Assembly (NCBI GenBank): GCA_004193545.1
Contig: RPGO01000040.1
Coordinates: 62,001 to 126,000 of the forward strand
Origin: Candidatus Argoarchaeum ethanivorans
GTDB lineage: Archaea > Halobacteriota > Methanosarcinia > Methanosarcinales > EX4572-44
DNA length: 64,000 bases
Reading direction: 5' to 3'
Positions 1,659 to 62,025 of this stretch are shown here, piece by piece (positions within the stretch are counted from its first letter, which is position 1; every line of letters starts with the position of its first letter). A program made the translations under genes and the position numbers. The notes under the pieces were generated by a model. It was not told the DNA's origin. It made no database searches and saw nothing but the letters and a program-made list of their open reading frames with translations.

Positions 1659-3129
1659 TTAAAATTTCTCTATAAACCTTAACTCCGCATCAATTGGGGG
1701 AATATGTTCAGCAGAGATTTTCACTCCAGATTCCTTACCTTCTTTTAGGAACCTCGAGTACAGTGTTATGTACTGGGTCTGACTATGATAGACTTGCTGT
1801 GATTTGAACAACAGATCAATCGAAGTGAACTTGTGAGTTGAGGCTCCGCTTTCTTCAGAGCTGCTCAACACAGTGGATATAGAGTGAAAGAAACGCGATG
1901 AATACGTGTCCGAAGACACTCTCATCGTCCTGCAGGTAGAGCTTGTCCGCATTAAGAACCGTCTTGTAAGTGTCAAACATCTTCTCAACCACTTCTCGTT
2001 TCTTGTAAAGCAGATAAATTTCCAGCTTCTCGACATCTCTATCTGAGACAATAAGAATTTTTCCTGCCTTTTTCATCCCTATATTAAATTTTTCCTTCTC
2101 GATCTCGTGCTCATCCAGTTTCCTGTACAGCGTCTTCTGTTCTTCCAGTCTGAGATCCTGATCCTCAAAGAGGTAGAGGTAAAAATCGTTGTGTTTCCGT
2201 TTTCCACACTTTATCAGACGACTGTGATAAGAAAAGTATTCGTTGAGGTGGATACGTGTATCGTAATAACGGCTATTCCTCTTTGTCGGGAGTACGTAAG
2301 ATATCTTCTTGCCCTCCTTACCGCCCAGGAACTTTATGGTGCCTTCCGAGAAGAAACCCCGGTCAAGGATGAGGGTCTCCCCTCCAATATCAAGTTCATT
2401 GATCGAGTGATACAGCGTTTTTATGTCCTTCACACTGCCAGGAAGAGAGCGAATCATTGTCGGCAATCCCGTGTCTGCACTGCACAGGAGAGCGAGATTG
2501 ATCTGAGGTATCTGTATTTTATCCTTGTTGTAGCCCTTCTCCGCCTGATTGATGCTCATAGAGCGTGAGAACACAGAGCTTAGATCATAAACAAGCTGTT
2601 TGCCCAGATCTGCAAGTTCATTGAAGATGATATTCTGTCCAGCCCGGTTTACACCCACTTCACGTATAATTCCGGAGAGCTTCTTCGGGCTTAGATAAGG
2701 ATTCATGTTCTCTGCATTGTAGAGTTTCTCCCATGCATCCTTTACCCGTTTTAAAGGCACATTGCCAGTGGCACGCACCATGGCAATAGCACAGATTTCA
2801 GCCCAACAGTCAGGGAAACCCTCCTTCAATAGTGGTTTGAGATCCTTAATCGTTTCATGGAGCAGCATCGAGTTGCCATATTCCGTGATGTTTCTGATAT
2901 CAGACGGATAAATTCTATGTCTTCCCCCTGATTTGATAAGCCCTTTATCAGGATCAAGTGCTCCAAGATATTTCGAGATTTTTCTCGGCTTTTTGAGTGC
3001 TTTGTCCCAGTAAGTGCTCGAATGATACACATAATAACATTTTCCCCGCATCTTTACCTCAAGGCATTTTACACCTTGATCCCTCTGTTCCTCCACCCAG
3101 GCTTTGACCCATTGTTCCATATTTGACAT
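1659..3129 (-). pseudogene. IS4/IS1634-like DDE transposase, frameshifted near the C-terminus
   Basis: 424-aa ORF (1855-3129) with LILDRGFFSEGTIKFL and the C-terminal YLLYKKREVVEKMFDTYK...FGHVFIAFLSLYIHC signature of IS1634/IS4-type transposases. The expected tail (KFTSIDLLFK...) lies in another frame in ORF 1659-2051. Confidence 0.75.
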
Positions 3130-3906
3130 ATAGGGAATAGGTCAATATAAAAGTATCGGTTTTTATTTATGTTTGATTGGCAAAAGAGGAAATATTACGT
3201 GATAATCTGATTATACCTATTCCCTATTCAGACGGAGTTAAGGTATAAAAACAGAAGGCAGGAGCGGGTAGGCATGTATCTACGAAACCAGAACCTGAAA
3301 GACAAAACGTTTCAGAGACTCATGCAAACTCAGGAGTGAATGCGAAAGGATACACGGACACATAAAGAATACAATGAAATTTGACGTTCGCAGAGTAAAA
3401 AAAGAAAGCCGGGAACTCTACTCAAAGATTAGCCTCGTAATATACCAGTTACTGTTACTAACCAACCTGCAAAACTACATTAAACTACCAAACTCCTTCG
3501 AAATCTATATTTAACCTAAGCCAAAGCAAAAACAAGCCTGAAAAACAAGATAGCTCCAGCCATCAACCTTTTTGACTAAATTAAACTCATACAACTACAA
3601 AAAACCAGATAAAATCACAATTCTACTTAACAAGATATTTTCTCAGGATAAAAACCAAGGAAACCTCAAGAGAATAGAGAGATCCATCAAATTAGAAACA
3701 CGAAATTCACGGGGTAATTTGATAACCTCCACCATATATCGGCAAAACGTTATCTTTTTTTATATTTAAGCAATCTCGTCTGCTTGTCAAATTTCATCTT
3801 TACAAAATTAAATGAAAACTGGCATGGCTGCCACGGTATATATACTGTTGGTAAAAAGGCTGTTTTAAATATTCAGGTTATTCGTGCGCGGATGCCATAT
3901 CTTATT

Positions 3907-4563
3907 TCAGGGAAGGCGCACTTTGTTTGCTGCATCCCAATCAGTGTCATAGATATGAGCACTATCACACACATCCACAAATTTTACAATTTTCATGTCA
4001 TCCAAAATCTCGCGATATAACATATCGACGATGCCACAAAGATTGGATGACCATGCAGAATATGCATCACGGCTTCTCCATGAAAGATGCACTTCACAGG
4101 TACTTTCGCTGAGTGGACGAATCCAGATTCTCTGGAGGCATGGTGGGTGTTCTGTGTTAACATCTTGCCCTGGCAGCCATGTGATTGCCTGGGCTCTCCG
4201 TGTTATTCCCTTCTTAACCTTCTGTTTGAGTGCTGCCAGTTGATCAATGCTTCCATTATAATTTATGAGGCGATCCATGTATGTATATTCAAATCCTTGA
4301 GCCTTCCAGTCGTAGTCCCTGGTATATTGCTTCAGGTATTCACCTGTACGAATTTTCCCAAAAGGTTCTTGTGGATGCATCTCTTTTTTTAGTATCTGGT
4401 TTACAGCACCCTCGCTAAGAGTGATGCGACTGCAAACATCCTTCGATTTGTTTCCGTACTCTGTCGTAAGCACCATCCCCGAGATCATTATTTTCATTAC
4501 AAGTTTTGCCCATGCTTTGGGAAAGTCACTCTCTACGATGTCAATATTTGGTGGAAATTCCAT
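3907..4563 (-). CDS. thyA: Archaeal-type thymidylate synthase
   Basis: ORF contains HPPCLQRIWIRPLS...CEVHLSWRSRDAYSAWSSNLCGIV, matching the TS catalytic region. The track start at 4710 reads through a tRNA gene; the plausible start is MEFPPNIDIV at 4563. Confidence 0.8.
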   Translation of the reverse strand: MEFPPNIDIVESDFPKAWAKLVMKIMISGMVLTTEYGNKSKDVCSRITLSEGAVNQILKKEMHPQEPFGKIRTGEYLKQYTRDYDWKAQGFEYTYMDRLINYNGSIDQLAALKQKVKKGITRRAQAITWLPGQDVNTEHPPCLQRIWIRPLSESTCEVHLSWRSRDAYSAWSSNLCGIVDMLYREILDDMKIVKFVDVCDSAHIYDTDWDAANKVRLP

Positions 4564-4589
4564 GATTACAACCTTTTCTTTTAAGACAA

Positions 4590-4661
4590 TGTCCCGACCG
4601 GGACTTGAACCCGGGTCTGAGGCTCCGCAGGCTTCAAGGATATCCGCTACCCTATCGGGAC
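4590..4661 (-). tRNA. tRNA-Arg (anticodon GCG)
   Basis: Reverse complement GTCCCGATAGGGTAGCGGATATCCTTGAAGCCTGCGGAGCCTCAGACCCGGGTTCAAGTCCCGGTCGGGACA folds as a cloverleaf: 7-bp acceptor stem, loop CTGCGGA, T-arm CCGGGTTCAAGTCCCGG. There is one A-C mismatch in the anticodon stem. Confidence 0.9.
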
Positions 4662-4993
4662 ACCACTTGAGTGAATACATTGTACCCTTATTAAATATTG
4701 TGTTCTGCACGGCAGTGGGACAAAAATAAACTATGCCTCATTCCACAATACTTTTTGTAATTTCGTGAGATATGTTTTCTCAACCGTTGGGAATTAGAAA
4801 GAACTGGAAATGCACCTGTTTTCTCTGCGCCCTCTGTGTTCTCAGCGGTTAAATTCCCCAACTTCGACTCATACCTTCCTGTGCTTAAAGGATATTGACC
4901 ACACAGTATTCTGGCAAGTACACGATTTGATTCTGTCCCACGACCAGGATTTGCATAACCTTTATCTGTTTTGATGTGTGTGAGCATCCTTGA

Positions 4994-7687: not shown

Positions 7688-7927
7688 TCAAAAGAAAATC
7701 TTCATACTCCTCGCTGGATGATTCCTCACTTCAGCAGATGTCGTTACACAATCAAGATGCTCCTGTGCGAGAGCCACTGCCGCGGCAAGATCTTCTCTGG
7801 TCGGACGCCGTGAAAAATCATTCACAGGCACATACCTGATAATCCGGAGAGAGATACTACGACTGATAGACGCTAAAAACTCTGCAACCCGTCCAATCTC
7901 TGGAGAATCAACCACATGAGTATCCAT
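7688..7927 (-). pseudogene. C-terminal fragment resembling a radical SAM (activase-like) protein
   Basis: 79-aa ORF RIIRYVPVNDFSRRPTREDLAAAVALAQEHLDCVTTS resembles the C-terminus of radical SAM activase-like proteins. No CxxxCxxC N-terminus is present upstream. Confidence 0.4.
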
Positions 7928-8018
7928 TGATCGTATTCATATCTCGTCTTTCAAATTATGTTAAGGGTAATTCCCTGCAAGTGGCAGCTTTGGACAATGC
8001 CATGAAGTTCTTGTAATT

Positions 8019-9893
8019 TCACGCTGGTAGATTTTTTCGGTATTGTGCGCCGAAGAATAATGATATGCTCTGGCAGACGTTATCCAGATGTGACAAGTCT
8101 TTTTCTTCATATATTCCTAGTTGCATTAACGTTTCATGTAATCTTTTTTGTGGTTCTATTTTTTCACGTGATTCGATCACGTCGTCTACGAGTTCTTCAA
8201 GATCTTTGAACAAATGGTAATTGACTATAAAAAATTTAACGTCTTCTTCAAGGAGAGAATAGTGTTCATCTGACACAAACGACATCGGATGGCTTTTTGT
8301 TAAATAAGGGGTTAAATCCTTTTCATTTTTTTGTATGTAATTATAGAACCAAGTAGGCATGCCAGAATTCCGATCGGTGCGGAATAATCCATAGACTTCT
8401 TCTAAAAGTTTTTCACCTCTTATGTAGTTTCCAGAAAGTGCATAAGTTATGGCAGCTTTTGTGAATGGATCGCATCGGTTCAGTCTATTTGAGCCGATTT
8501 GATCTCCTATGAGCCAGTCTATCACAAGTTTTGATAAAACGCCAAAGCCTAATCTAAACAGGATTTTATCTTCTCCTGGTTTGGACAGTTTTTCAAATTT
8601 TCTTGAATATTTTTGCTCCATTCCAAATTCTCTATTAAACATATCCCTGCACGCTTTTGTTATTTCTTTATTAATATTGGGTATTGCAATCTCAAGATAG
8701 TTTAACCGGATTTCAACATTGGCAGGTTTTAAGTAGTCTTTACCTAACTTTAAGTTGATAAGCAAGCGTATACAAAATTTTCGTAACTCTTCTAATGTTT
8801 TAGATAAATTTAAAATATTTACACGTTCACCAGCATATATAGTCATATTATATCTCTGTTTTCCTTGTACAATAGTTTTCACTGTCTTTAAATTCCATTT
8901 CATTCCACCAAGTATTGTAGGATGCTTCTGTGCTTCTTTTAATAGCTTTTCTGTAAACTCTTCTGGTTGAGAGATGCGCATGGTAATGATAAAAGCGGGT
9001 GAAAAAATTTCAGGCATTTTTGAATTTTTGTTTACTGGCTGCATAAGCTCACTGCTTAATGACTGAGCTTCAGGAACATACACACCTGTTATTGGCTCTT
9101 TGATAATCTCTAATAAAAATAATGATGACGCAGGGTCTATCACATTTAGGTTAAGAAGTTTTTCTATCAAATTTTTTTTAGAGAACATGAACTCTTTTAG
9201 ACCGAACCGTATCAGCCTGCAGAACCTCTGTTCAGGATTTCCCACGATGAACTCAGTATCGAATGGTACATCGTTATTTATCAATGAATTCTTTATATAA
9301 ACATCGATAATTTTATTTTTATTCCAATCGATAATTTTATTGTAGGGAAAACCGTGTGATAATATCCAACGCAATGCAATAATTGCATTTTCAAACTTTT
9401 CGACTTGATAGTAAGTCTCGCCCATACGCCCATATCTTACGTTGTTCAATAAAACAAAAAATGGGTTGAATTGACCATTTCCTACAAAGCTATCAATAGT
9501 TCCATATCGATGATCTTCAAACGACTCTCCATCAGCCCCGCACACCAAAATATTTTTATTAGTTATGAAAAAAGGAGCATAATCTAATGCGGTTATAACA
9601 TTTACCATATATGTACCAGAACTTATTTTATCATGTTCTTTATTGAGTTCATCTGTTTCCAGTACAGCGTAAAACACACGTTCATCAAGTCTCGTAATGT
9701 GCTGTAAAAAAGACACTCGAAATGGTTTATTGTTGTTCGCATTATAATCTATAAAAATACACTCTATTGAAAACTTATGAGTGCCCTCCCCACCCAACTC
9801 ATAACCCCGCGATGGAAAAACGAAGACACCTTCCAGTGATTCAAGATCACTCGATATCACTTCAACATCTGACTTGTAAATATTGTACTTCAT
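8019..9893 (-). CDS. Uncharacterised 624-aa protein, third gene of the nitrilase cassette
   Basis: Long intact ORF starting 3 nt after the stop of the upstream gene. No family recognised by eye. Confidence 0.85.
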   Translation of the reverse strand: MKYNIYKSDVEVISSDLESLEGVFVFPSRGYELGGEGTHKFSIECIFIDYNANNNKPFRVSFLQHITRLDERVFYAVLETDELNKEHDKISSGTYMVNVITALDYAPFFITNKNILVCGADGESFEDHRYGTIDSFVGNGQFNPFFVLLNNVRYGRMGETYYQVEKFENAIIALRWILSHGFPYNKIIDWNKNKIIDVYIKNSLINNDVPFDTEFIVGNPEQRFCRLIRFGLKEFMFSKKNLIEKLLNLNVIDPASSLFLLEIIKEPITGVYVPEAQSLSSELMQPVNKNSKMPEIFSPAFIITMRISQPEEFTEKLLKEAQKHPTILGGMKWNLKTVKTIVQGKQRYNMTIYAGERVNILNLSKTLEELRKFCIRLLINLKLGKDYLKPANVEIRLNYLEIAIPNINKEITKACRDMFNREFGMEQKYSRKFEKLSKPGEDKILFRLGFGVLSKLVIDWLIGDQIGSNRLNRCDPFTKAAITYALSGNYIRGEKLLEEVYGLFRTDRNSGMPTWFYNYIQKNEKDLTPYLTKSHPMSFVSDEHYSLLEEDVKFFIVNYHLFKDLEELVDDVIESREKIEPQKRLHETLMQLGIYEEKDLSHLDNVCQSISLFFGAQYRKNLPA

Positions 9894-9896
9894 TTC

Positions 9897-11069
9897 TTAA
9901 ACGTGTTTTCGCTTATACTCCTGAAAGTCTCTATTCAGTTCTGACATTATATTCCCATCAAAAGGAAGGAGGTCTTGAGGTGGACCAAATATAGTAGACT
10001 CTAAGTCCATAAGCGCTGGGTTTTCATATGAATCAATAAGGCGGTTAATCAATCCATCTTCCATAGCTTTGTCATCTTTGCCTTTTACATAATCCGATGC
10101 AGCACATTGTTGAGCGCCTCTTATAGCTTGTTCAGACATTTGCAGAAGATCACTGATGAGTCTGTCTGAAATCTCTTTTGAATTTCTGTGTCTGACTTGG
10201 ATATCCTTGATAGTTCTGGAACCAACTGAATAATACTTGAGGTCTTCGATTGCAATTTTAAAATCATCCTTTTTAACCACCTGTATTTTATTTTGATCTT
10301 CAATATGTATTCTATCAGCAATCTTATCTCTGAAAATATCAATATTAAATAATCCTTCTGTTGGTACGATGATAACTGCTGTTTCTTCTTTTTTTCCACC
10401 AAAAAATGGTTGGAATGGAAAAAATGGAAACTTCTTCTTTTCTTGAATGAATAAATCTGAATAAATAGCCCCAGACTCATTTAACCCTTCACGATCAAAC
10501 TCAATTTCCACCGTTAAATGTGGATCAGCATCAAACGCATAATTAGATATAAATTTAGGCGCTATCCAGTTAATATGTTTAAGCTGCTGTGTAGGTATGT
10601 ATTCCCACAATTCATTAAGATAAGCTTTCGCCAAATCTCTTTGCTTATAATCTCTAACATCCTTTCTTACTGTGCTTGTAAAATAATATGCAAAATTGGG
10701 ACCATTAAAATGACAATTTAAAATTGTGTTTTCACGAGGAAAATCTATTTGCATACATTTATGATCTTCTGATGTTAGTGTAATAAAATAGGCACTTAGC
10801 CCTATTTTGTCAATCCCACATTCTCTGTTGGCATAACCAGCAATGTCTTCGAGACGTGATTCTAACCAATCATACTCTCTTTGAGAGTCATCAAACGCTT
10901 TAGTAGAACTCTTTTTTTTTAATCTTTCAATATACTTCAAAACAGGATTATAGTCTTCAGAAAAACTCTTTAAAATCTTATCTCCTTTTTCGACACCTTT
11001 ACATGGTTTATTTCCAGTTTTTTTTGGAATACCCCAATCATCTAAACTATACTCAACCATTCTTACCAC
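9897..11069 (-). CDS. Uncharacterised 390-aa protein, second gene of the nitrilase cassette
   Basis: Intact ORF whose start overlaps the 3' end of the upstream nitrilase-like gene by 7 nt. No family recognised by eye. Confidence 0.85.
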   Translation of the reverse strand: MVRMVEYSLDDWGIPKKTGNKPCKGVEKGDKILKSFSEDYNPVLKYIERLKKKSSTKAFDDSQREYDWLESRLEDIAGYANRECGIDKIGLSAYFITLTSEDHKCMQIDFPRENTILNCHFNGPNFAYYFTSTVRKDVRDYKQRDLAKAYLNELWEYIPTQQLKHINWIAPKFISNYAFDADPHLTVEIEFDREGLNESGAIYSDLFIQEKKKFPFFPFQPFFGGKKEETAVIIVPTEGLFNIDIFRDKIADRIHIEDQNKIQVVKKDDFKIAIEDLKYYSVGSRTIKDIQVRHRNSKEISDRLISDLLQMSEQAIRGAQQCAASDYVKGKDDKAMEDGLINRLIDSYENPALMDLESTIFGPPQDLLPFDGNIMSELNRDFQEYKRKHV

Positions 11070-12568
11070 TTCTTTGTTATAGACTTGATTATTTTTTTAC
11101 TTTGTTGTAAATATGTTCCTACAGTGTATAACTTATCTTTAACATTTTCATCTTCTGTTTCGGTTAATTTTTTGTCTTTGACCTTTTCGAGCTGATCTAA
11201 ACGCTTCACAAGTTGTTCCAGACTTTCAATAAGTTGTGTTGGAATTTCTTCCTTCTGTGTATATTCATAAATTCTCTGAAAAATGCCCAATAACTCATTT
11301 TTACGCAGTTCATCAATAACTACCTTGTTTCCTAAAGCACCATCTTCAAAATATCCTATAAACTCATCTGAACAATACATATCTATCATTGGATACAAAG
11401 AGTTCGAGTTTACTTTATCGTATATAACCTCTTTAGGAAGAACATAGTTCCATTTAGTATCCTTTCGCTCACAGATTTGCATAATCTCAATTGGATTCCG
11501 TGAGGCTCTCACAACCTCTTTATAATTAGATAAAAGAGCACATTCCAAAAAATATAGTCTATCTGATGTATTAACAAATTCCATCTTATGCAGATTTCCC
11601 CGACCCATTTTAGTCAATCTGTGTTCACTTGTATCATTAAATATTGCTTTTTTATTGAATACAAGAAGGCTGCCGTGAACAGGGGAGTCGTTCTTGTTTG
11701 GATTCGTGGAACCATCTGAAACATTGACAAACAGAGTATAAGTACATGCCCTCAACGCCCTCGTTGGTAGACACAAATAATATTCATATAGCGCTTCATC
11801 AATAGATGGATGATTCATCCGTGGATTATATTGTAATATAAAAACAATGTCTGGAGCACCGTGTTTTTTAGAATATTCGATTAGACTTTCAATCACCGAG
11901 AAACCTGCTTCTGTTTTTTCATACAGTTGATCGAAGCAGATTAGAGGGAAAAAACTAAATTTTTGCAATCCTGGCGTTCCATTGTTTTCTCTTGCGTTTA
12001 CTTTAAAGCATGATAAGCAGCCACCGTGCAATATTTCTGAATTGCGCGATCCAGTCTGTTCACAACCTGCTGGGAATAACTTTGACTGGAAATACTGCTT
12101 TACCTCATCACCTGATTTGACAATAATCGAGCAGAAATTAACAGGTTTGTCTTTTTTGATATGCGTGTAATCTGTACTTTCGATTATTGGTCTCACTTGT
12201 TCCTCCTTTTTACGGTTGTCTGATCCCTCTAATAATTCTACAAATCTTTCCAACGATATGTAATCAAAACCTGCTAACAGAATGAAATCAGAATTAAATT
12301 TCTTAACACATTCTTTTAGTTTATCTACACATTCGTGAGGAACAGACCATTCAGGAAACACAGCAACGTCAACACGACGACCTTGAAAATTTGATTCTTT
12401 TATAGTGTTCAATGTTTGTTCAATCAATTTCCATTGTTTTCCTGGATCTTTATGCCTTACAAAATTTCCATCTTTTTTCCAGCAAACAGGTAGCTGAGCC
12501 ATAGCAATAACAAGATTAGAATCAGAATTTACATTAAAATCAATAAAATCCTCATATATATCAAACAT
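11063..12568 (-). CDS. Nitrilase/carbon-nitrogen hydrolase-fold protein, first gene of the cassette
   Basis: NLVIAMAQLPV start strand, Glu in VAVFPEWSVPH, Lys in YFQSKLFPAG, Cys in FFPLICFDQLY: the Glu-Lys-Cys triad spacing of the nitrilase superfamily. Confidence 0.8.
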   Translation of the reverse strand: MFDIYEDFIDFNVNSDSNLVIAMAQLPVCWKKDGNFVRHKDPGKQWKLIEQTLNTIKESNFQGRRVDVAVFPEWSVPHECVDKLKECVKKFNSDFILLAGFDYISLERFVELLEGSDNRKKEEQVRPIIESTDYTHIKKDKPVNFCSIIVKSGDEVKQYFQSKLFPAGCEQTGSRNSEILHGGCLSCFKVNARENNGTPGLQKFSFFPLICFDQLYEKTEAGFSVIESLIEYSKKHGAPDIVFILQYNPRMNHPSIDEALYEYYLCLPTRALRACTYTLFVNVSDGSTNPNKNDSPVHGSLLVFNKKAIFNDTSEHRLTKMGRGNLHKMEFVNTSDRLYFLECALLSNYKEVVRASRNPIEIMQICERKDTKWNYVLPKEVIYDKVNSNSLYPMIDMYCSDEFIGYFEDGALGNKVVIDELRKNELLGIFQRIYEYTQKEEIPTQLIESLEQLVKRLDQLEKVKDKKLTETEDENVKDKLYTVGTYLQQSKKIIKSITKKW

Positions 12569-12862
12569 TTATACCATTCCTAACTTGACTTTATCACACT
12601 CACCCGCATGTATCTCGACACACAAATTCGACACACAAATTGAGGATTTTTATTAACTTGTAGTTTTACTATGATATTTGTAGTTTTCTAAATGGTTCGG
12701 ATGTATTATGAGGCTATCAAATCGCCTCGGAAATTTTGCGTTTCTGGCAGAGGTATGCCAATCCTCATTGCTGTAAAAGTATCGAGACATTCCGCAATGA
12801 TAAATAATTTTCAAGCGAGTCTGTGAAAGAGATTAACTTTTAAGTCAAAAAGCTAATTTTAT

Positions 12863-12909
12863 GGCTGTCGACTTGCTCAGGTATTATGCTAAAACTTCGA
12901 TTTTTCCAA
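12863..12909 (+). repeat. Relic of a mobile-element terminus
   Basis: ggctgtcgacttgctcaggtattatgctaaaact aligns with the outer end of the element at 63841-63974 (ggctgtcaacttgttgggtgttataccaaaact). Confidence 0.55.
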
Positions 12910-13286
12910 AAGACCTGAAACCCTGGTCAACAGGCACAACTCCGCCAGTTCCAACCACTGTATGACTAAAACAACCACGACAATTAAAATTACACCCAGC
13001 CAACTGAACAGTACACTAAAACTCAGACAGAGCGAGATAACACAGATTCACAACATCCATAAACCACACAAATCATTCAAGATACTATCGGACAAAATAT
13101 AGGGGTGTTGAGAAGCGAGAGTTAGCTTAATGGCGAGATCGATGAAACGGATCGAGAGATTGATAGAATGGTTTATGAGCTTTATATGGCGATGAAGGGA
13201 TCAACCAGATTCACAGATTGGAACGAATTCGTTAAAGAACTTTCCACGGAAAGGTTAGTATGACATGAGACAATATTAGTTTAGAG

Positions 13287-14267
13287 ATGAACAATATGAA
13301 AATGGTTTATGGACCAGTTCCATCACGGCGGCTTGGTCGTTCTCTTGGTGTCAACCCGATCCCACTTAAAACATGCAACTATTCCTGCGTGTACTGCCAG
13401 CTCGGCAGGACCGCACACGTAACCAATCAGCGTCAGGACTTCTTTTCACCGGAAGAAATATTAGGCGAGATCAGGAGTGCAATAGAAATAAAAGATGGTC
13501 GTGGCGATGGTGAAATAGATTTTGTAACTTTTATAGGAGAAGGTGAACCGACGTTATGCAAAAGCATCGGCTGGTTAATCAGGAAGACCAGGGAAATAGC
13601 AGATGTGCCAGTGGCTGTTGATACAAATGGTTCGCTTCTCTACAGGGAAGACGTAAGAAATGACCTTTTACAGGCAGATGTTGTTATGCCGTCCCTTGAC
13701 GCAGGCACCGCCGAAACATTCAGAAAGATAAACAGGCCGCACCACGAGATCGGTTTTAAGAAGGTTGTCGAAGGCATGGAACAGTTCAGGCAGGAGTATG
13801 CAGGAGAGATATGGCTGGAAGTCATGCTGGTAAAAGGAATCAATGACTCAGAAAAAGAACTAAAAGCAATAAGAAGCAGGCTTGAAAAGATAAAACCAGA
13901 CAGAATCTATATAAATGTCCCGATAAGACCTCCTGCAGAATCATGGGCGATTCCACCAGACAAAGAGACGATCGCATTAGTACACGCGATTCTTGGTGAT
14001 GGTAATGTGGTAGATATTGCTGCAGAAGAGACTGGTGAATTTTCTATCGAGGGCTTCACAAACCCAGAAGACGCTATTTTAGCAATAACAAGACGGCACC
14101 CGATGAGGGAGATCCAGGTTATAGAAACACTAAAGAAATTCAAGGCAGGGAATCTTCACGATGATTTAAAAAGGCTGAAGGAAAGCGGAAAAATAAAAAA
14201 GGTGAAATACCGGGAGAAAGTCTTCTGGCTTGCAGTGGAAGGAAAAAGAGGTAAAGAATATGAATAG
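13287..14267 (+). CDS. Radical SAM protein (COG0731-like Fe-S oxidoreductase)
   Basis: YGPVPSRRLGRSLGVNPIPLKTCNYSCVYCQLGRT contains CxxxCxxC; also FIGEGEPTLC. Confidence 0.88.
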   Translation: MNNMKMVYGPVPSRRLGRSLGVNPIPLKTCNYSCVYCQLGRTAHVTNQRQDFFSPEEILGEIRSAIEIKDGRGDGEIDFVTFIGEGEPTLCKSIGWLIRKTREIADVPVAVDTNGSLLYREDVRNDLLQADVVMPSLDAGTAETFRKINRPHHEIGFKKVVEGMEQFRQEYAGEIWLEVMLVKGINDSEKELKAIRSRLEKIKPDRIYINVPIRPPAESWAIPPDKETIALVHAILGDGNVVDIAAEETGEFSIEGFTNPEDAILAITRRHPMREIQVIETLKKFKAGNLHDDLKRLKESGKIKKVKYREKVFWLAVEGKRGKEYE

Positions 14268-14673
14268 TCCAAAACCTGGTGGTGGTAAAAAACCCAAAAG
14301 TATCGGCAAGTCTTTTTATCGAGCATTAAAAAGCTTGGGATCAGCTCTTCCAATGCTGCTGGCTGTTGTCCTGCTTCTTGGGCTTTTCTTAACCTTTGTA
14401 TCAAAACAGTTTATTGCATCTGTATTTACAGGGGAATTGTTTTGTGATACGATAATTGGTTCCGCGATTGGTAGTATTGCAGCAGGCAATCCTATCACCA
14501 GCTATATAATAGGCGGGGAGCTTATGAAAGAAGGCGTGAGTCTCTTTGCGATAACTGCATTCATGGTGACCTGGGTAACAGTTAGTATAGCTCAGTTTCC
14601 TGCTGAAGCAGCATTTCTTGGCAAACGATTCGCATTGATTAGAAACGCACTTGGGTTCATTCTTGCCATCCTA
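14260..14673 (+). CDS. Permease-like membrane protein; 3' end abuts the IS630 insertion
   Basis: Hydrophobic segments (ALPMLLAVVLLLGLFLTFV...FAITAFMVTWVTVSIAQFPAEAAFLGKRFALIRN). The frame runs into the left IS end. Confidence 0.65.
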
Positions 14674-14733
14674 GTGTCTCAGCAACTTAATTTTTAGACA
14701 AAGTTTATAAACCTGTGAGTCCAACCATATTCT

Positions 14734-15165
14734 ATGGAAAAAATAAAACTTACAGAGAAAGAGGTGGAGTATCTCAACGATTTCGTGAAAATGGGGCGTA
14801 AAAGCGCGAGAGAATTGACCCGGGCACATATTTTGCTTCTGGTCAATGATGGAAAAAAGGAAATGGAGATAAAAGATACGCTGCGGATCAGCAGGGCAAC
14901 CGTTTCCAACACCAAGAAGAAATACCGCGAAGAAAGTCTCCAAAGCGCCCTCGCGGAGAAACCAAGATCCGGTCAGCCTAAAAAGTATACAGAGAAACAT
15001 GAGGCGGAAGTTATAGCGCAGGCATGCACCGAATCACCTGATGGGCGCAAGAGATGGACACTTACACTACTAACAGAAGAAATGCGAAAGAAGGATGGGT
15101 TTGAAACGATAAACAAAGAGAGTATCAGGCTTATTTTAAAAAAAGCAAAACTAAACCTTGGTTAA
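14734..15165 (+). CDS. IS630 transposase OrfA (HTH region)
   Basis: IKDTLRISRATVSNTKKKYREESLQSALAEKPRSGQPKKYTEKHEAEVIA HTH region. Ends just after an A7 slippery run. Confidence 0.9.
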   Translation: MEKIKLTEKEVEYLNDFVKMGRKSARELTRAHILLLVNDGKKEMEIKDTLRISRATVSNTKKKYREESLQSALAEKPRSGQPKKYTEKHEAEVIAQACTESPDGRKRWTLTLLTEEMRKKDGFETINKESIRLILKKAKLNLG

Positions 15166-15170
15166 GGCGG

Positions 15171-15829
15171 ATGTGGTGCATACAGACGATCGACACCGAA
15201 TACAGAGAACGGATGTACGATGTTCTCGATCTGTACGAAGAACCGTACGACCCGGGAAGTCCCATTGTCTGTTTTGACGAGAAACCAAAGCAACTTCTTG
15301 GAGATAAAAGGATTTCCATCCCTATGAAGCCTGGAATCCCTGTGAAATATGATTATGAATATATCAGGAACGGTACAGCAAACATTTTCATGGCGGTCGA
15401 ATTTAAAGCAGGAAAACTGGTGACGAGAGGATCACCAAAAGAAGAACCATGGTAGATTTTGCACAATTCGTGAAGATACTTGTCGATGAAGAATACCCAG
15501 ACGTTAAAATCATCCGGCTGGTTATGGATAATCTCAATACTCACAAGGAAAAGTCATTTTACGAGGCATTCGGCGAGGGGGAGGCGGAAATGATTTTGAG
15601 CAAGATCGAGTTTCATTACACACCAAAGCATGCAAGCTGGCTTAATGCCGCTGAAATCGAGATCAATGTAATGGATATCGAATGCACTGACAGACGGATT
15701 GGAGATATGGAGATACTGACTCATGAGGTGACAGCGTGGACCAGGAGACGGAATGACGATGAAAAGAAAATCAACTGGGGGTTTACGAGGAGAAAGGCGG
15801 ATAAGAAACTGTCCAAGTATTATGTCTAA
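15171..15829 (+). pseudogene. IS630 transposase OrfB (DDE domain), frameshifted in copy 1
   Basis: ORFs 15171-15455 and 15449-15829 together match the single OrfB of copy 2. Copy 1 has gtgacgagaggatcacc where copy 2 has gtgacccagatcacc (+2 nt). Confidence 0.88.
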
Positions 15830-15851
15830 GAACTAAATTGTCGAGACACTA

Positions 15852-16171
15852 GTAAAGGTGGGTATCTGACAAATGAAGCACCTGAAAGAATGTATTTAGA
15901 TGCTGCAGAACTTGGAGTGGAATATTTTGTTGTTCCATGGACAAAAGTAGATAAAATGAAAAAATATTGTTCACTTTTATCAAAAGCATCAAATAATACA
16001 AAATTCCTTTTCCCTGGTATCAGACGTGACTATCAAGGTGGAGATATAATAGAAGCATTCAAAGCTGTTAAGCCATTTTCAAGTTATGCAATCGTTGGAA
16101 GAGCAATATACGCTGCTGGTGATATAAAAAAAGCAGCAGAAAGATTATATGAGGCTATTAAAGATTTTTGA
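15852..16171 (+). pseudogene. pyrF: 5'-truncated orotidine 5'-phosphate decarboxylase (PyrF-like) fragment
   Basis: GGYLTNEAPERMYLDAAELGVEYFVVPWTK...FLFPGIRRDYQGGDIIEAFKAVKPFSSYAIVGRAIYAAGDIKKAAERL resembles the C-terminal half of OMPDC. The N-terminal half is absent. Confidence 0.65.
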
Positions 16172-29082: not shown

Positions 29083-31104
29083 TTGCAAACTAATCCAATA
29101 AATAAAGGAACAGAAATGATTGATGAAGACATTCTATTTAGCGAATATAATAAAATTATTCCAAGATATATAGATTTGGGAAGAAGTCTTCAGCAAGCCT
29201 TCCAAACTCTCTTATATAGTGCAAATCTTGATGTGCATCTGATAGATTCTCGGCCTAAATCTTTTGAATCTTTTATTGATAAAATAAAACGTAAAGGCTA
29301 CAAAGATCCGTTTCAAGAGACTGAAGACATTTGTGGCGTAAGAATCGTGTGTTTTTATCAATCGGACATGGAGAAAATATCTCAATTAATACATAGTGAA
29401 TTCGATGTTAAAGAATATTCAAATAAAGCAGTTTCATCTGAACTTGATAAATTTGGATACCGTTCGGATCATTTCATTCTAACAATAAAAAAGGATTGGC
29501 TAAAGGCACCCAACTATCGTGGTTTGGATGGTTTAAAAGCTGAGGTACAAGTCCGTACAATCCTCATGCATGCATGGGCTAATCTTTCACATGAACTTGC
29601 TTTTAAAAAAGAAGATTTGCCTGACGAATATATGCGTATATTATATCGGCTTAGTGCACTATTTGAAATGGCCGATGATCAATTCGATCATCTACGAAAT
29701 GGATTGAAAGGTAATAAGTTAACCCCACAAAGATATCTAAATAAATCGAGTGCATGGGGATTGAAAGGAAAAGAGGCTATTCAACGCTTAATATCGAGGC
29801 CTGTCCAACCAAGAATCTTGGCAAATGAATTTATGGTTGGCTTAGATCAAGGGAAGTATAATATTTCCGATCTTACTGATTTGATTTATAATTTGAGTAG
29901 GGTGAAAACTGATGATGTATGCGAATTAATAGAATATCTAAATATTTCTATTATTAAAGCAGAGTTTTCAAAAACAAATCTTAGTGTTTATGCTAATTTA
30001 TTAGCAGTTGTTAAACATTCTAAATGTGGAATTAATTATGTTGATGGACTCACCCCCGATTTTGAAATAATATTTTCACGTGTTTGTAATGGAACGGGAA
30101 GTGATTTGCGTAATATTATGGAAGCACTCTTTATGAATGACAAAATGCAGCTTTGGAGAGAGCTCACAGATGAAAATTTACAAGAAATCATTAATGTTTC
30201 AACCCTCAATCAACTCAATAACCTTCTAACAGATGCCTTAAAATCTAAAAATAAAACCTCCAAACAGCTAGGAAGTGATATAGCTACTAAATTAGTCAAT
30301 CTTGATCTTTCGGAATTGATGAAAAAATCTAATCTTAGTGAAGTGAGTATGTTCAATAATGCAGCGTTAACTCTTAAACCTCAACTCGAAAAAGAAATTT
30401 TTGAGCAGATTTTCCCTTATCTAGAAGATATCATCGAGAGTGAACCTGATGAAACAAAAATAATTAGCAAAATCAGCTTAATACTTCGGGATTTCCAAAA
30501 ATTGAGAGGTTTTTCTGAAATATCTCATTTTGCTTATAGGTTATTACAGAAAATAACTCAGCTAGATTTATTACCATATATTCAATCCTCAAAAGAGGGT
30601 TTAGTTCATTTAATATATTGGGCAATAATGATCGATAAAAATATTTCAAGAAAATGGTTTTATAAAATTGATAAACATATATGGATAGACAAGATTCTTG
30701 ACTCTTCTGAAGACGAAGCCTTTTGGATTATTTGGAATATTTGGCAGGTCGAACAAACTCTCGCATGCTCTTTCATAAATGAGGACAGCATAAGGGATAA
30801 AATGGCAACAACCCCTTATGGTGTATGCGTACTAATCTTTTGTGGCATTTCTATCGAAAATACTTGTATTATTCCATCACAATCGACTTATAACATTAAT
30901 GAGTCCGATCTTACTAAATTTATACTGCAACTTAAAGTTCTATGTCTCCCTAGTAATCAAGATATGGCTATTAACGTTCGTAGTAAAATAGATTTAGTGA
31001 AAATAAATGAGAAAATTCAGAAGTCTCTTATATTACATCCTACTAAGGAGTTATTCATGAAAATACTTGATGATTTCGAAAAAATCACCAATTATGGGCA
31101 ATGA
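29083..31104 (+). CDS. RelA/SpoT-domain (ppGpp synthetase-like) protein with a large C-terminal extension
   Basis: DSRPKSFESFIDKIKRKGY, EDICGVRIVCFYQSDM, FGYRSDHFIL, KAEVQVRTILMHAWANLSHELAFK correspond to synthetase motifs. Alternative start at 29116. Confidence 0.88.
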   Translation: MQTNPINKGTEMIDEDILFSEYNKIIPRYIDLGRSLQQAFQTLLYSANLDVHLIDSRPKSFESFIDKIKRKGYKDPFQETEDICGVRIVCFYQSDMEKISQLIHSEFDVKEYSNKAVSSELDKFGYRSDHFILTIKKDWLKAPNYRGLDGLKAEVQVRTILMHAWANLSHELAFKKEDLPDEYMRILYRLSALFEMADDQFDHLRNGLKGNKLTPQRYLNKSSAWGLKGKEAIQRLISRPVQPRILANEFMVGLDQGKYNISDLTDLIYNLSRVKTDDVCELIEYLNISIIKAEFSKTNLSVYANLLAVVKHSKCGINYVDGLTPDFEIIFSRVCNGTGSDLRNIMEALFMNDKMQLWRELTDENLQEIINVSTLNQLNNLLTDALKSKNKTSKQLGSDIATKLVNLDLSELMKKSNLSEVSMFNNAALTLKPQLEKEIFEQIFPYLEDIIESEPDETKIISKISLILRDFQKLRGFSEISHFAYRLLQKITQLDLLPYIQSSKEGLVHLIYWAIMIDKNISRKWFYKIDKHIWIDKILDSSEDEAFWIIWNIWQVEQTLACSFINEDSIRDKMATTPYGVCVLIFCGISIENTCIIPSQSTYNINESDLTKFILQLKVLCLPSNQDMAINVRSKIDLVKINEKIQKSLILHPTKELFMKILDDFEKITNYGQ

Positions 31105-36063: not shown

Positions 36064-38347
36064 TTACACCCCTCTGATTATTTTAATTTCTTCTTCGCAA
36101 AGTGGATTTTTGGCGTTTGGATTTAAGAATACTTTTTTCTTGAATTCATGGTCTCTATCATAACCAACAAAAACCACTGCCGATACTCTTGTGCTAGATC
36201 GAAATAGCCCCGAATTATCTCTATTCAGATATGTATCAATAATTTCACCAGTTTTATTACTTTTTAAAGTTGTTTCTTGTAACTTTCCGTAAAGTGCATC
36301 TTCCGTATAGCGTATCCCTGCATCATGCAATATAACGACATTTGGTTTGTTTTTAAGTAATTGCCTATTCTGTTTTTTACGTAGTGTCTCAGCAACTTAA
36401 TTTTTAGACAAAGTTTATAAACCTGTGAGTCCAACCATATTCTATGGAAAAAATAAAACTTACAGAGAAAGAGGTGGAGTATCTCAACGATTTCGTGAAA
36501 ATGGGGGCGTAAAAGCGCGAGAGAATTGACCCGGGCACATATTTTGCTTCTGGTCAATGATGGAAAAAAGGAAATGGAGATAAAAGATACGCTGCGGATC
36601 AGCAGGGCAACCGTTTCCAACACCAAGAAGAAATACCGCGAAGAAAGTCTCCAAAACGCCCTCGCGGAGAAACCAAGATCCGGTCAGCCTAAAAAGTATA
36701 CAGAGAAACATGAGGCGGAAGTTATAGCGCAGGCATGCACCGAATCACCTGATGGGCGCAAGAGATGGACACTTACACTACTAACAGAAGAAATGCGAAA
36801 GAAGGATGGGTTTGAAACGATAAACAAAGAGAGTATCAGGCTTATTTTAAAAAAAGCAAAACTAAACCTTGGTTAAGGCGGATGTGGTGCATACAGACGA
36901 TCGACACCGAATACAGAGAACGGATGTACGATGTTCTCGATCTGTACGAAGAACCGTACGACCCGGGAAGTCCCATTGTCTGTTTTGACGAGAAACCAAA
37001 GCAACTTCTTGGAGATAAAAGGATTTCCATCCCTATGAAGCCTGGAATCCCTGTGAAATATGATTATGAATATATCAGGAACGGTACAGCAAACATTTTC
37101 ATGGCGGTCGAATTTAAAGCAGGGAAACGTGTGACCCAGATCACCAAAAGAAGAACCATGGTGGATTTTGCACAATTTGTGAGGATGCTTGTCGATGAAG
37201 AATACCCAGACGTTGAAAACATCCAACTGGTCATGGATAACCTCAATACTCACAAGGAAAAGTCATTTTACGAGGCATTCAGTGAGGAGGAGGCGGAAAG
37301 GATTTTGAGCAAGATCGAGTTTCATTACACGCCAAAACATGCAAGCTGGCTTAATGCCGCTGAAATCGAGATCAATGTGATGGATATCGAATGCACTGAC
37401 AGACGGATTGGAGATATGGAGACACTGGTCCGGGAAGTGGCTGCATGGACCAGGAAACGGAATGACGATGAAAAGAAAATCAACTGGGGGTTTACGAGGG
37501 GGAAGGCGGATAAGAAACTGTCCAAGTATTATGTATAAGAACTAAATTGTCGAGACAGTAGTTTACTATTTATCTTATCTATATCACCAAAACCGATTCT
37601 GGCGGGTCCTATACAATGCACAGATGTGTAATCGAGATTGTCTCGTGGGTAGAAAATAATCTTTGCTTTGGCAGTATGTATTATATCGGAAAGCGGGTAC
37701 TTTTCTGGGTTGGTATAAAGGTCTTCGGGATCGTTTATTCCATCGAAACCATACCAATCTTTAGAATCTGCTGAAGAAAAATAGTAAGTAGTAACAGGCT
37801 TTAAAATTCCTTTTTCCTTAAAATCAGCAATTCTCTTCTTTATTGTTTTTATTAGCGGGATCAAATCTTCTTTTGAAAAACTCTCATTAAACACAACATA
37901 TATTGAGAATCTGGACTTTATTTTTTCAATCCTATTATCAATCTCTTTAGAATACACATCTAACTCTTGTTGTTCTTTCGATAGCCATCTATTTGTTATT
38001 TCAAAGTTTATCCATCGATCTTTAACCTTAACCTTCAAATCCGCCCCACTCTCTGGAAAATACGGTTCAATAATGACTGAGATGTTTTTATTACCGAAAT
38101 AAGCTGCCCATTCTATTTCAGGTAAAGTATCGTAAAACGTATTCTTTAATTTACCTTCCAAACTTTTCTGTTTATCTTCTCTTTTTGGGTCTTTTTCAAT
38201 GATTTGTAAGACCGCTTCGAGTTCGTCATTGAGTTTGCTAAGTCTTTCTGATCCAAGGTTGTTTTTTAGATATTCAAAACATTTAGCGCCTAAAAATTCT
38301 TTCAGCGTGGAGTATTTGTCCGTATAGCCCGGTATTTTATCTTTCAC
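36064..38347 (-). pseudogene. PD-(D/E)xK-like protein gene split by IS630 copy 2
   Basis: 5' ORF (37559-38347) and 3' ORF (36064-36381) join in frame when the IS and one TA are removed: ...DKINSKLRKKQNRQLLKNKPNVVILHDAGIRYTEDALYGK... Nuclease-like pattern IEWAAYFG...GADLKVKVKDRWINFEIT. Confidence 0.85.
36384..37558 (+). mobile_element. IS630-family-like insertion sequence, copy 2
   Basis: Near-identical to 14674-15849. TIRs present, with TA at 36382-36383 and 37559-37560. OrfA carries an extra G (gaaaatgggggcg), OrfB (36882-37538) is intact. Confidence 0.93.
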
Positions 38348-38624: not shown

Positions 38625-39701
38625 CTATTCGCGTTTATGTGCAGTATCGATCGTGTACCATCTCGCAGACCATGTCAACACCCTTATCTTATCTATATTG
38701 CGCTTTTCTATCTTTGCTTTTGTGTCTATACTCCTTATGAGCAGCGGAAACTGACACCGATATACTGAATCCCCACCGGTAATTTCATTAATCAGATTAT
38801 GCTCGCCGCTCGCAACTACTATTTTGAGCTCGTTTTTATAGTCATCCACGAGCGTTTCAAATACTGCTCTTGCCTTCTCGGCATGATGCCTGACATCCTC
38901 GTCGCGGAGTCGCTCAAATCTACGCTGGCTCCATCCTCCTTTCGTGTGCTTCTCCTTTACACTACTACGAACAATCTTGTAATTAATAAACGCTTCCCGA
39001 TTTGATATTCCGATAAACGTCTCCCCTGCATGGGCCAATACGATGCAAATTGCCTGATTTTGCTCTAATAGTTCTTGTAGCTGTGTGGTATCAAAGACGC
39101 AGTCTATTTTCCACCCGGATTCACCTATTGGAAACGGCGGTGTTATGAGCATGCGAACCGCCCCCGGCGTTTTCATATCGTAGAAAAGTGCCATACCTGT
39201 TGGCGACTCGATCTTTTGCATCAGGCATTCAACATCTTGACCGAGTTCAATATCAAATCCATCAAGGTTGGCGAATGATTCGTTTGGACGCAGGTAGATC
39301 GTGGTAAGGTCTTTATTTCTTGACTTAATCGAACCAACCTGTGACAAAAAATCACAGGATTGGGGATTTGTTAACGTTACCGCCTGTTTAAAGGTCAGGA
39401 CGTCACCTTTTTGTGTTTCCTCCTTCAGATTGTCAAGCGCGCGTTTTAGATTGTCCACTCTTTCTTCTGCCCTTTTCAATGCCAGACCCGCTTCCTGTCT
39501 ATCAGATACCGCTTTTTTAGTTCGCACCTCCTGCTTTGACAATCGTGTAGAGAGTGATTTGTTTTCTGGTTCAAGCTCTTTAATACGTGCTTGTAGTATT
39601 TCAATCCTCTTTTTTGATTCTTTCCGATCAAAGAGCCCGTCAAACATACAAAACAACATGCGAAGTGCTTTGATAAAACTTTCGTTGGACGAGCCCCCCA
39701 A
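38625..39701 (-). CDS. Vms1/VLRF1-like (eRF1-fold) protein with N-terminal coiled coil
   Basis: N-terminal heptad-rich helix, then KEKHTKGGWSQRRFERLRDEDVRHHAEKARAVFETL, which resembles the eRF1 GGQ-loop region (KHGKGGQSxxRFxRLR). Confidence 0.75.
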   Translation of the reverse strand: MGGSSNESFIKALRMLFCMFDGLFDRKESKKRIEILQARIKELEPENKSLSTRLSKQEVRTKKAVSDRQEAGLALKRAEERVDNLKRALDNLKEETQKGDVLTFKQAVTLTNPQSCDFLSQVGSIKSRNKDLTTIYLRPNESFANLDGFDIELGQDVECLMQKIESPTGMALFYDMKTPGAVRMLITPPFPIGESGWKIDCVFDTTQLQELLEQNQAICIVLAHAGETFIGISNREAFINYKIVRSSVKEKHTKGGWSQRRFERLRDEDVRHHAEKARAVFETLVDDYKNELKIVVASGEHNLINEITGGDSVYRCQFPLLIRSIDTKAKIEKRNIDKIRVLTWSARWYTIDTAHKRE

Positions 39702-61926: not shown

Positions 61927-62025
61927 CTGCACAACTTCGTTGTACAGAGTTATTGGATAACCTTTAATTCTCGACTTTCGCAAGTACAGAGTTATTGGAT
62001 AACCTTTAATTCTCGATTGCGCGAC
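61927..62025. repeat. Stem-loop plus 42-bp tandem repeat downstream of nrdJ
   Basis: ctgcacaacttcgttgtacag stem-loop; gtacagagttattggataacctttaattctcga at 61942 and 61984. Confidence 0.85.

Follow-up and report, generated by a model that had tools for sequence, protein, structure and literature searches.

Nitrilase domains are emerging as a death-effector module, and have been found combined with reverse transcriptases (RTs) in DRT1 and DRT5, with SMC proteins in Lamassu and with CARF sensors. In DRT1, the catalytic Cys of the nitrilase and the RT are both required for abortive infection, and the substrate of the nitrilase was left as an open question (PMC13275509). In Lamassu, C-N hydrolases are listed among the effector types of LmuA, and LmuB is common to all systems (PMC10586767). 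The locus described here is a cassette of three genes in a 64,000-nucleotide stretch (hereafter the window; positions 62,001 to 126,000 of contig RPGO01000040.1) of the Candidatus Argoarchaeum ethanivorans genome, which comprises 1.99 Mb in 46 contigs and whose genes, among them one for an HdrA-like protein, point to an archaeon of the methanogen or ANME type. The cassette pairs a stand-alone nitrilase-like gene with two genes of no recognised family, and interrupts a gene that is intact in related genomes.

Arrangement of the three genes

All three open reading frames (ORFs) are on the minus strand and, as stated in the original prediction made from the sequence, are intact and tightly packed. 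Gene 1 (11063-12568) predicts a 501-aa nitrilase-like putative effector with profile matches, whereas gene 2 (9897-11069, 390 aa) and gene 3 (8019-9893, 624 aa) encode orphan proteins without a known domain. The 7-nt overlap between genes 1 and 2 depends on the use of a GTG start for gene 2; an alternative in-frame ATG at 11060, three codons downstream, would leave a gap of 2 nt. Genes 2 and 3 are separated by 3 nt, and the near overlap of the genes suggests a single transcript. The inserted segment that carries the trio (see below) was simulated 300 times with a Markov-1 model, in which the longest run without a stop was 213 codons (mean 107); the ORFs of 501, 390 and 624 codons all exceed this maximum and are therefore real genes. 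GC content also differs among their codon positions in a coding-like manner.

The nitrilase domain of gene 1

The predicted product of gene 1 has a nitrilase domain (approximately residues 18-315) followed by a helical C-terminal extension (residues 316-501). Its best profile match is to the PADLOC model LmuA (E 4.8e-17, residues 44-315), aligned to positions 47-312 of the 604 in the profile only, so the match does not span the full length of the protein or take in the C-terminal docking domain. Further PADLOC matches are to RTasNitrilase (E 3.8e-5) and RT_UG5-nitrilase (E 2e-4), and gene 1 by itself gives no match to Pfam CN_hydrolase (PF00795).

The Glu-Lys-Cys triad originally proposed for gene 1 was recovered by alignment with other archaeal nitrilase-like proteins, namely a Lamassu LmuA (L018), a nitrilase-STAND fusion (L020) and TPR-nitrilase proteins of the order. 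The predicted catalytic residues are Glu73 (FPEWS; codon at 12350-12352), which is invariant in the alignments, and Lys163 (QSKLFP; 12080-12082) and Cys211 (LICFD; 11936-11938), all on the minus strand. Four divergent proteins, L018 and L020 among them, have FPE (E73), K163 and C211 in common, together with a Q-x-N motif, and one TPR-nitrilase (L010) carries Gly at the position of the catalytic Cys.

The set of relatives of gene 1 also matches the CARF-nitrilase and RT-nitrilase profiles in PADLOC, and 3 of its 8 members match CN_hydrolase. A profile built from the relatives matches NAD+ synthetase in its glutaminase domain, which has the nitrilase fold (E=0.0012). This, together with the alignments to LmuA and the relatives, indicates a nitrilase fold for gene 1. 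With the triad in the expected order in the alpha-beta-beta-alpha domain and a link that is transitive through the relatives, membership of the nitrilase superfamily is regarded as established from sequence comparison. The intact triad suggests that the enzyme is catalytically active, and the profile matches support grouping it with defence nitrilases rather than with general nitrilase enzymes. LmuA-type nitrilases are rare in the phylum, occurring in 2 of 394 genomes, this one included.

Comparison with known nitrilase systems

Lamassu (ABC-3C) systems with a nitrilase-type LmuA resemble the cassette in having an N-terminal nitrilase effector domain, an additional C-terminal domain and a multi-gene operon. 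However, the cassette lacks the SMC/ABC protein LmuB, and its 390- and 624-aa partners have no P-loop; the Walker A (P-loop) motif is absent from all three proteins. The LmuB profile does not match genes 2 and 3, but detects LmuB (2.1e-84) adjacent to LmuA (1.6e-92) in a genuine Lamassu locus (L018, in G279) used as control. The only LmuB-profile match in the Argoarchaeum genome is weak (19.3 bits) and falls in a frame of 1181 aa on a different contig. The lack of LmuB rules out Lamassu as the identity of the cassette. The L018 locus itself (2985-4777) is of the nitrilase type, with an LmuA fragment and a broken LmuB, and is flanked by type I restriction HsdS- and HsdM-like genes.

DRT1 and DRT5 (class 3 UG/Abi RT-nitrilase) share with gene 1 a nitrilase domain that is thought to be the abortive infection effector, as well as the weak profile matches, but in the cassette the nitrilase is a separate polypeptide and there is no RT. 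Neither the RT catalytic motif [YFM]xDD nor an RT profile match was found in genes 2 and 3, and a DRT is ruled out on this basis. A single tRNA is the sole Rfam match near the cassette, so there is no sign there of a DRT-type non-coding RNA.

A nitrilase domain with the same triad occurs on the same contig in a nitrilase-STAND/AAA fusion (L020:2934-6914; G000:C23:5933-9913), ∼52-56 kb before the start of the window. Unlike gene 1, it is part of one 1326-aa protein that includes an AAA NTPase and tandem repeats. As this protein also matches LmuA, such a match marks the nitrilase domain and not Lamassu. A STAND/NLR-like (Avs-type) cassette is ruled out, as all three proteins lack the Walker A motif. 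The C-terminal half of the fusion consists of tandem helical repeats, several of them near-identical copies, which suggests recent expansion of the sensor region.

TPR-nitrilase proteins of the order and the CARF-nitrilases of type III CRISPR (PADLOC) likewise couple a nitrilase module to a putative sensing module. In these the sensor is fused and of known fold, whereas the cassette has two separate, unrecognised proteins. The TPR-nitrilases (L006, L007, L008, L010, L013, L015) are open frames of ∼765-1450 aa found in a number of further genomes from the order; at L007 the TPR and nitrilase parts are adjoining ORFs, and members of this set match both the CARF-nitrilase and RT-nitrilase profiles.

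Insertion into a radical SAM gene

When compared by blastn with the empty sites of two congeners, the window aligns up to position 7915 and resumes at 12927. Hence, a segment of ∼5.0 kb (approximately 7916-12926; delimited by blastn, composition and junction alignment) that includes the trio has taken the place of ∼319 bp within a radical SAM gene, replacing codons 30-148. Both ends of this gene were located using tblastn on the minus strand, codons 149-223 at 7691-7915 (96% identity to the copy in G295) and codons 1-29, with one in-frame stop, at 12965-13051. The truncated radical SAM fragment noted originally is thus real and represents a gene broken by the cassette, as it is whole (223 aa) in all four relatives with an assembled site (G295, G296, G297 and G299). 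Identity over the 223 aa is 82% for the G297 copy and 77% for the G299 copy, and the intact protein is similar to activases of glycyl-radical enzymes (YjjW, NrdG2 and PFL-activase types, with every match under the cut-off). Only ∼1 kb separates the neighbouring crcB from a second radical SAM gene in the congeners G295 and G296, compared with 5.6 kb here. This second gene (13287-14267) is full length, encoding 326 aa with 98% identity to G295.

The insert has a GC content of 33-36%, compared with ∼43% in the flanks. Codon usage of the cassette is 0.23-0.28 away from the host-gene set, against 0.10 for alaS, and is taken as supporting evidence only, because the host set includes alaS and large distances are also seen for some of the other flanking genes. 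At the insert, neither an integrase nor terminal inverted repeats nor a target-site duplication was seen. In the junction alignment, a short sequence immediately within the left junction is similar to a more interior portion of the radical SAM gene, and the left boundary may therefore sit ∼20-30 bases further in. The comparisons support a horizontally acquired block, with its own genes intact, that is absent from this site in relatives. The neighbourhood had also been described as containing restriction-modification and mobile-element relics. A frameshifted IS630-type copy (14671-15852) accounts for the latter, but no restriction-modification relic was found among the flanking ORFs tested, some small fragments aside, and that part of the description is unconfirmed.

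Genes 2 and 3

Searches of Pfam, NCBIfam, PHROGs, PADLOC, PDB, phages, plasmids and IMG/VR detected no homologue for gene 2 or gene 3. The same was true of whole genomes from the phylum, of which up to several hundred were searched in partly overlapping draws and the leading weak matches inspected and rejected. For gene 3 only, exact peptide words also gave no homologue in genome contigs. Bacteria and metagenomes were covered at most by short exact peptide patterns, and at the sensitivity used the two genes are, from these searches, genuine orphans, in keeping with the earlier finding of no recognisable family. They have no detectable relationship to one another, and neither includes transmembrane-like segments.

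Two weak matches were rejected as chance. Residues ∼206-262 of gene 3 match a short membrane protein in five genomes (E 0.007-0.08), which we take to be an MrpC/NuoK-type antiporter subunit; the matches are to a single housekeeping family, and gene 3 has neither a NuoK profile match nor such a hydrophobic segment. A match of gene 2 in G080 (E 0.007) falls within a large vWA-like surface protein.

Possible function and alternative explanations

Our preferred explanation, held with moderate confidence, is that the trio is a horizontally acquired cassette of the abortive infection type, in which a nitrilase effector is restrained and triggered by two unrecognised partners. Gene 1 would supply the effector, a Glu-Lys-Cys amidohydrolase of the nitrilase superfamily with a C-terminal extension for docking or oligomerisation. 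The products of genes 2 and 3 would keep it inactive and switch it on once infection is sensed, and the activated enzyme would then hydrolyse an essential amide- or amine-bearing metabolite, causing growth of the infected cell to stop. The identity of the effector and the history of the insertion rest on computed results, while from the known systems we infer by analogy the defence function and the partnership of the genes, along with complex formation, sensing, enzyme activity, substrate and cell arrest. The earlier suggestion of an effector with two sensor or adaptor partners therefore stands in so far as gene 1 belongs to the nitrilase superfamily and is nearest to defence nitrilases; the sensor and adaptor roles are still drawn from analogy. 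None of the findings named in the original prediction as contrary to it was obtained, the cassette being at no metabolic locus and its partners falling in no known pathway.

Several results weigh against this explanation. The LmuA match of 59.6 bits covers the nitrilase domain alone, and none of the immediate neighbours of the cassette was found to belong to another known defence system. Features of a sensor, in the form of a P-loop, RT motif or recognised repeats, are absent from genes 2 and 3, and their single-sequence AlphaFold models are unusable, with pLDDT (predicted local distance difference test) values of 36 and 35, respectively. In searches that extended little into bacteria and metagenomes, no second copy of the trio was found, and a single copy provides neither evidence of co-occurrence nor an alignment for folding genes 2 and 3.

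The intact state of a cassette that has inserted into, and broken, a host gene would also fit a toxin-antitoxin-like addiction or stabilisation module on a mobile element, with gene 1 as the toxin, gene 2 and/or gene 3 neutralising it, and no sensing of viruses. The close spacing of the genes and a putative repeat operator upstream are consistent with such a module, but partners of 390 and 624 aa are large compared with the usual antitoxins, the insert has no mobility gene, and in practice this explanation overlaps with defence; it is considered unlikely. Orphan genes of foreign composition are typical of archaeal mobile elements, and the two found here could instead be part of a block of cargo, perhaps from a virus or plasmid, whose genes are unrelated, with a nitrilase and two element proteins that work separately. 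However, phage, plasmid and IMG/VR collections contain no homologue, and the near-overlapping genes point to one transcript, making an assemblage of this kind very improbable.

Members of the nitrilase superfamily are mostly metabolic enzymes, and an accessory metabolic or biosynthetic operon, with a nitrilase-type amidohydrolase acting on a small molecule, has to be considered. Against this, gene 1 is closer to defence nitrilases than to the general CN_hydrolase model, the partners match no enzyme family, and the cassette is missing at this site in all relatives tested, so that an operon of this type appears quite unlikely, somewhat more so than an addiction module. A divergent or broken Lamassu, in which the SMC component LmuB has been replaced or lost, would explain why gene 1 has LmuA as its top profile match, and the phylum does contain a genuine nitrilase-LmuA accompanied by LmuB (L018). 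Yet LmuB is common to all Lamassu systems (PMC10586767), genes 2 and 3 do not match its profile, none of the three proteins has a Walker A motif, the sole LmuB-profile match in the genome is the weak one (19.3 bits) on another contig, and the nitrilase-STAND protein shows that matching LmuA marks the nitrilase domain. Descent from Lamassu is accordingly given as little weight as a cargo block.

More tentatively, and with some doubt, the abortive infection cassette may represent an archaeal immune system of three components that has not been described before, with a stand-alone nitrilase under the control of two proteins that are neither NTPases nor RTs and that have new folds or form new families. 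If so, it would be a further independent wiring of a nitrilase 'suicide' enzyme to a sensor, and two protein families would be new to archaeal immunity, a field studied much less than its bacterial counterpart. The pairing of nitrilase effectors with interchangeable sensors is already known, TPR and STAND proteins being further partners in this archaeal order, and the partners encoded by genes 2 and 3 would be a new variant of this theme. A stand-alone nitrilase with two separate partners would also be suited to substrate discovery, since the effector could be produced and mutagenised independently of its regulators.

Other features of the window

Upstream of gene 1 are two exact tandem copies of the 13-mer TCGACACACAAAT (12615-12640), a possible operator or relic of an IS630 end. 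Two 10-mers resembling the terminal inverted repeats of IS630, TATCTCGACA at 12611 and the inverted TGTCTCGATA at 12780, lie in the same region, and the stretch 12611-12789, which includes both 10-mers and the doubled 13-mer, is possibly a relic of a miniature inverted-repeat transposable element. The IS630-type element at 14671-15852 has 30-nt inverted ends and a frameshifted transposase, and interrupts an ArsP-like permease gene that is continuous in congener G295. It is followed by a truncated OMP decarboxylase fragment (15890-16171), and a related IS630 copy is located at 36882-37538.

Two further genes were noted. The first (29083-31104, plus strand) encodes a 673-aa protein with a RelA/SpoT domain, has a GC content of 32% and non-host codon usage, and weakly matches PADLOC PDC-S33; its sequence is suggestive of a (p)ppGpp- or tRNA-modifying toxin or defence gene of foreign origin. 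The second (38625-39701, minus strand) predicts a protein of 358 aa that combines an N-terminal coiled coil with a release-factor domain resembling acVLRF1/eRF1, and is possibly a ribosome-rescue factor.

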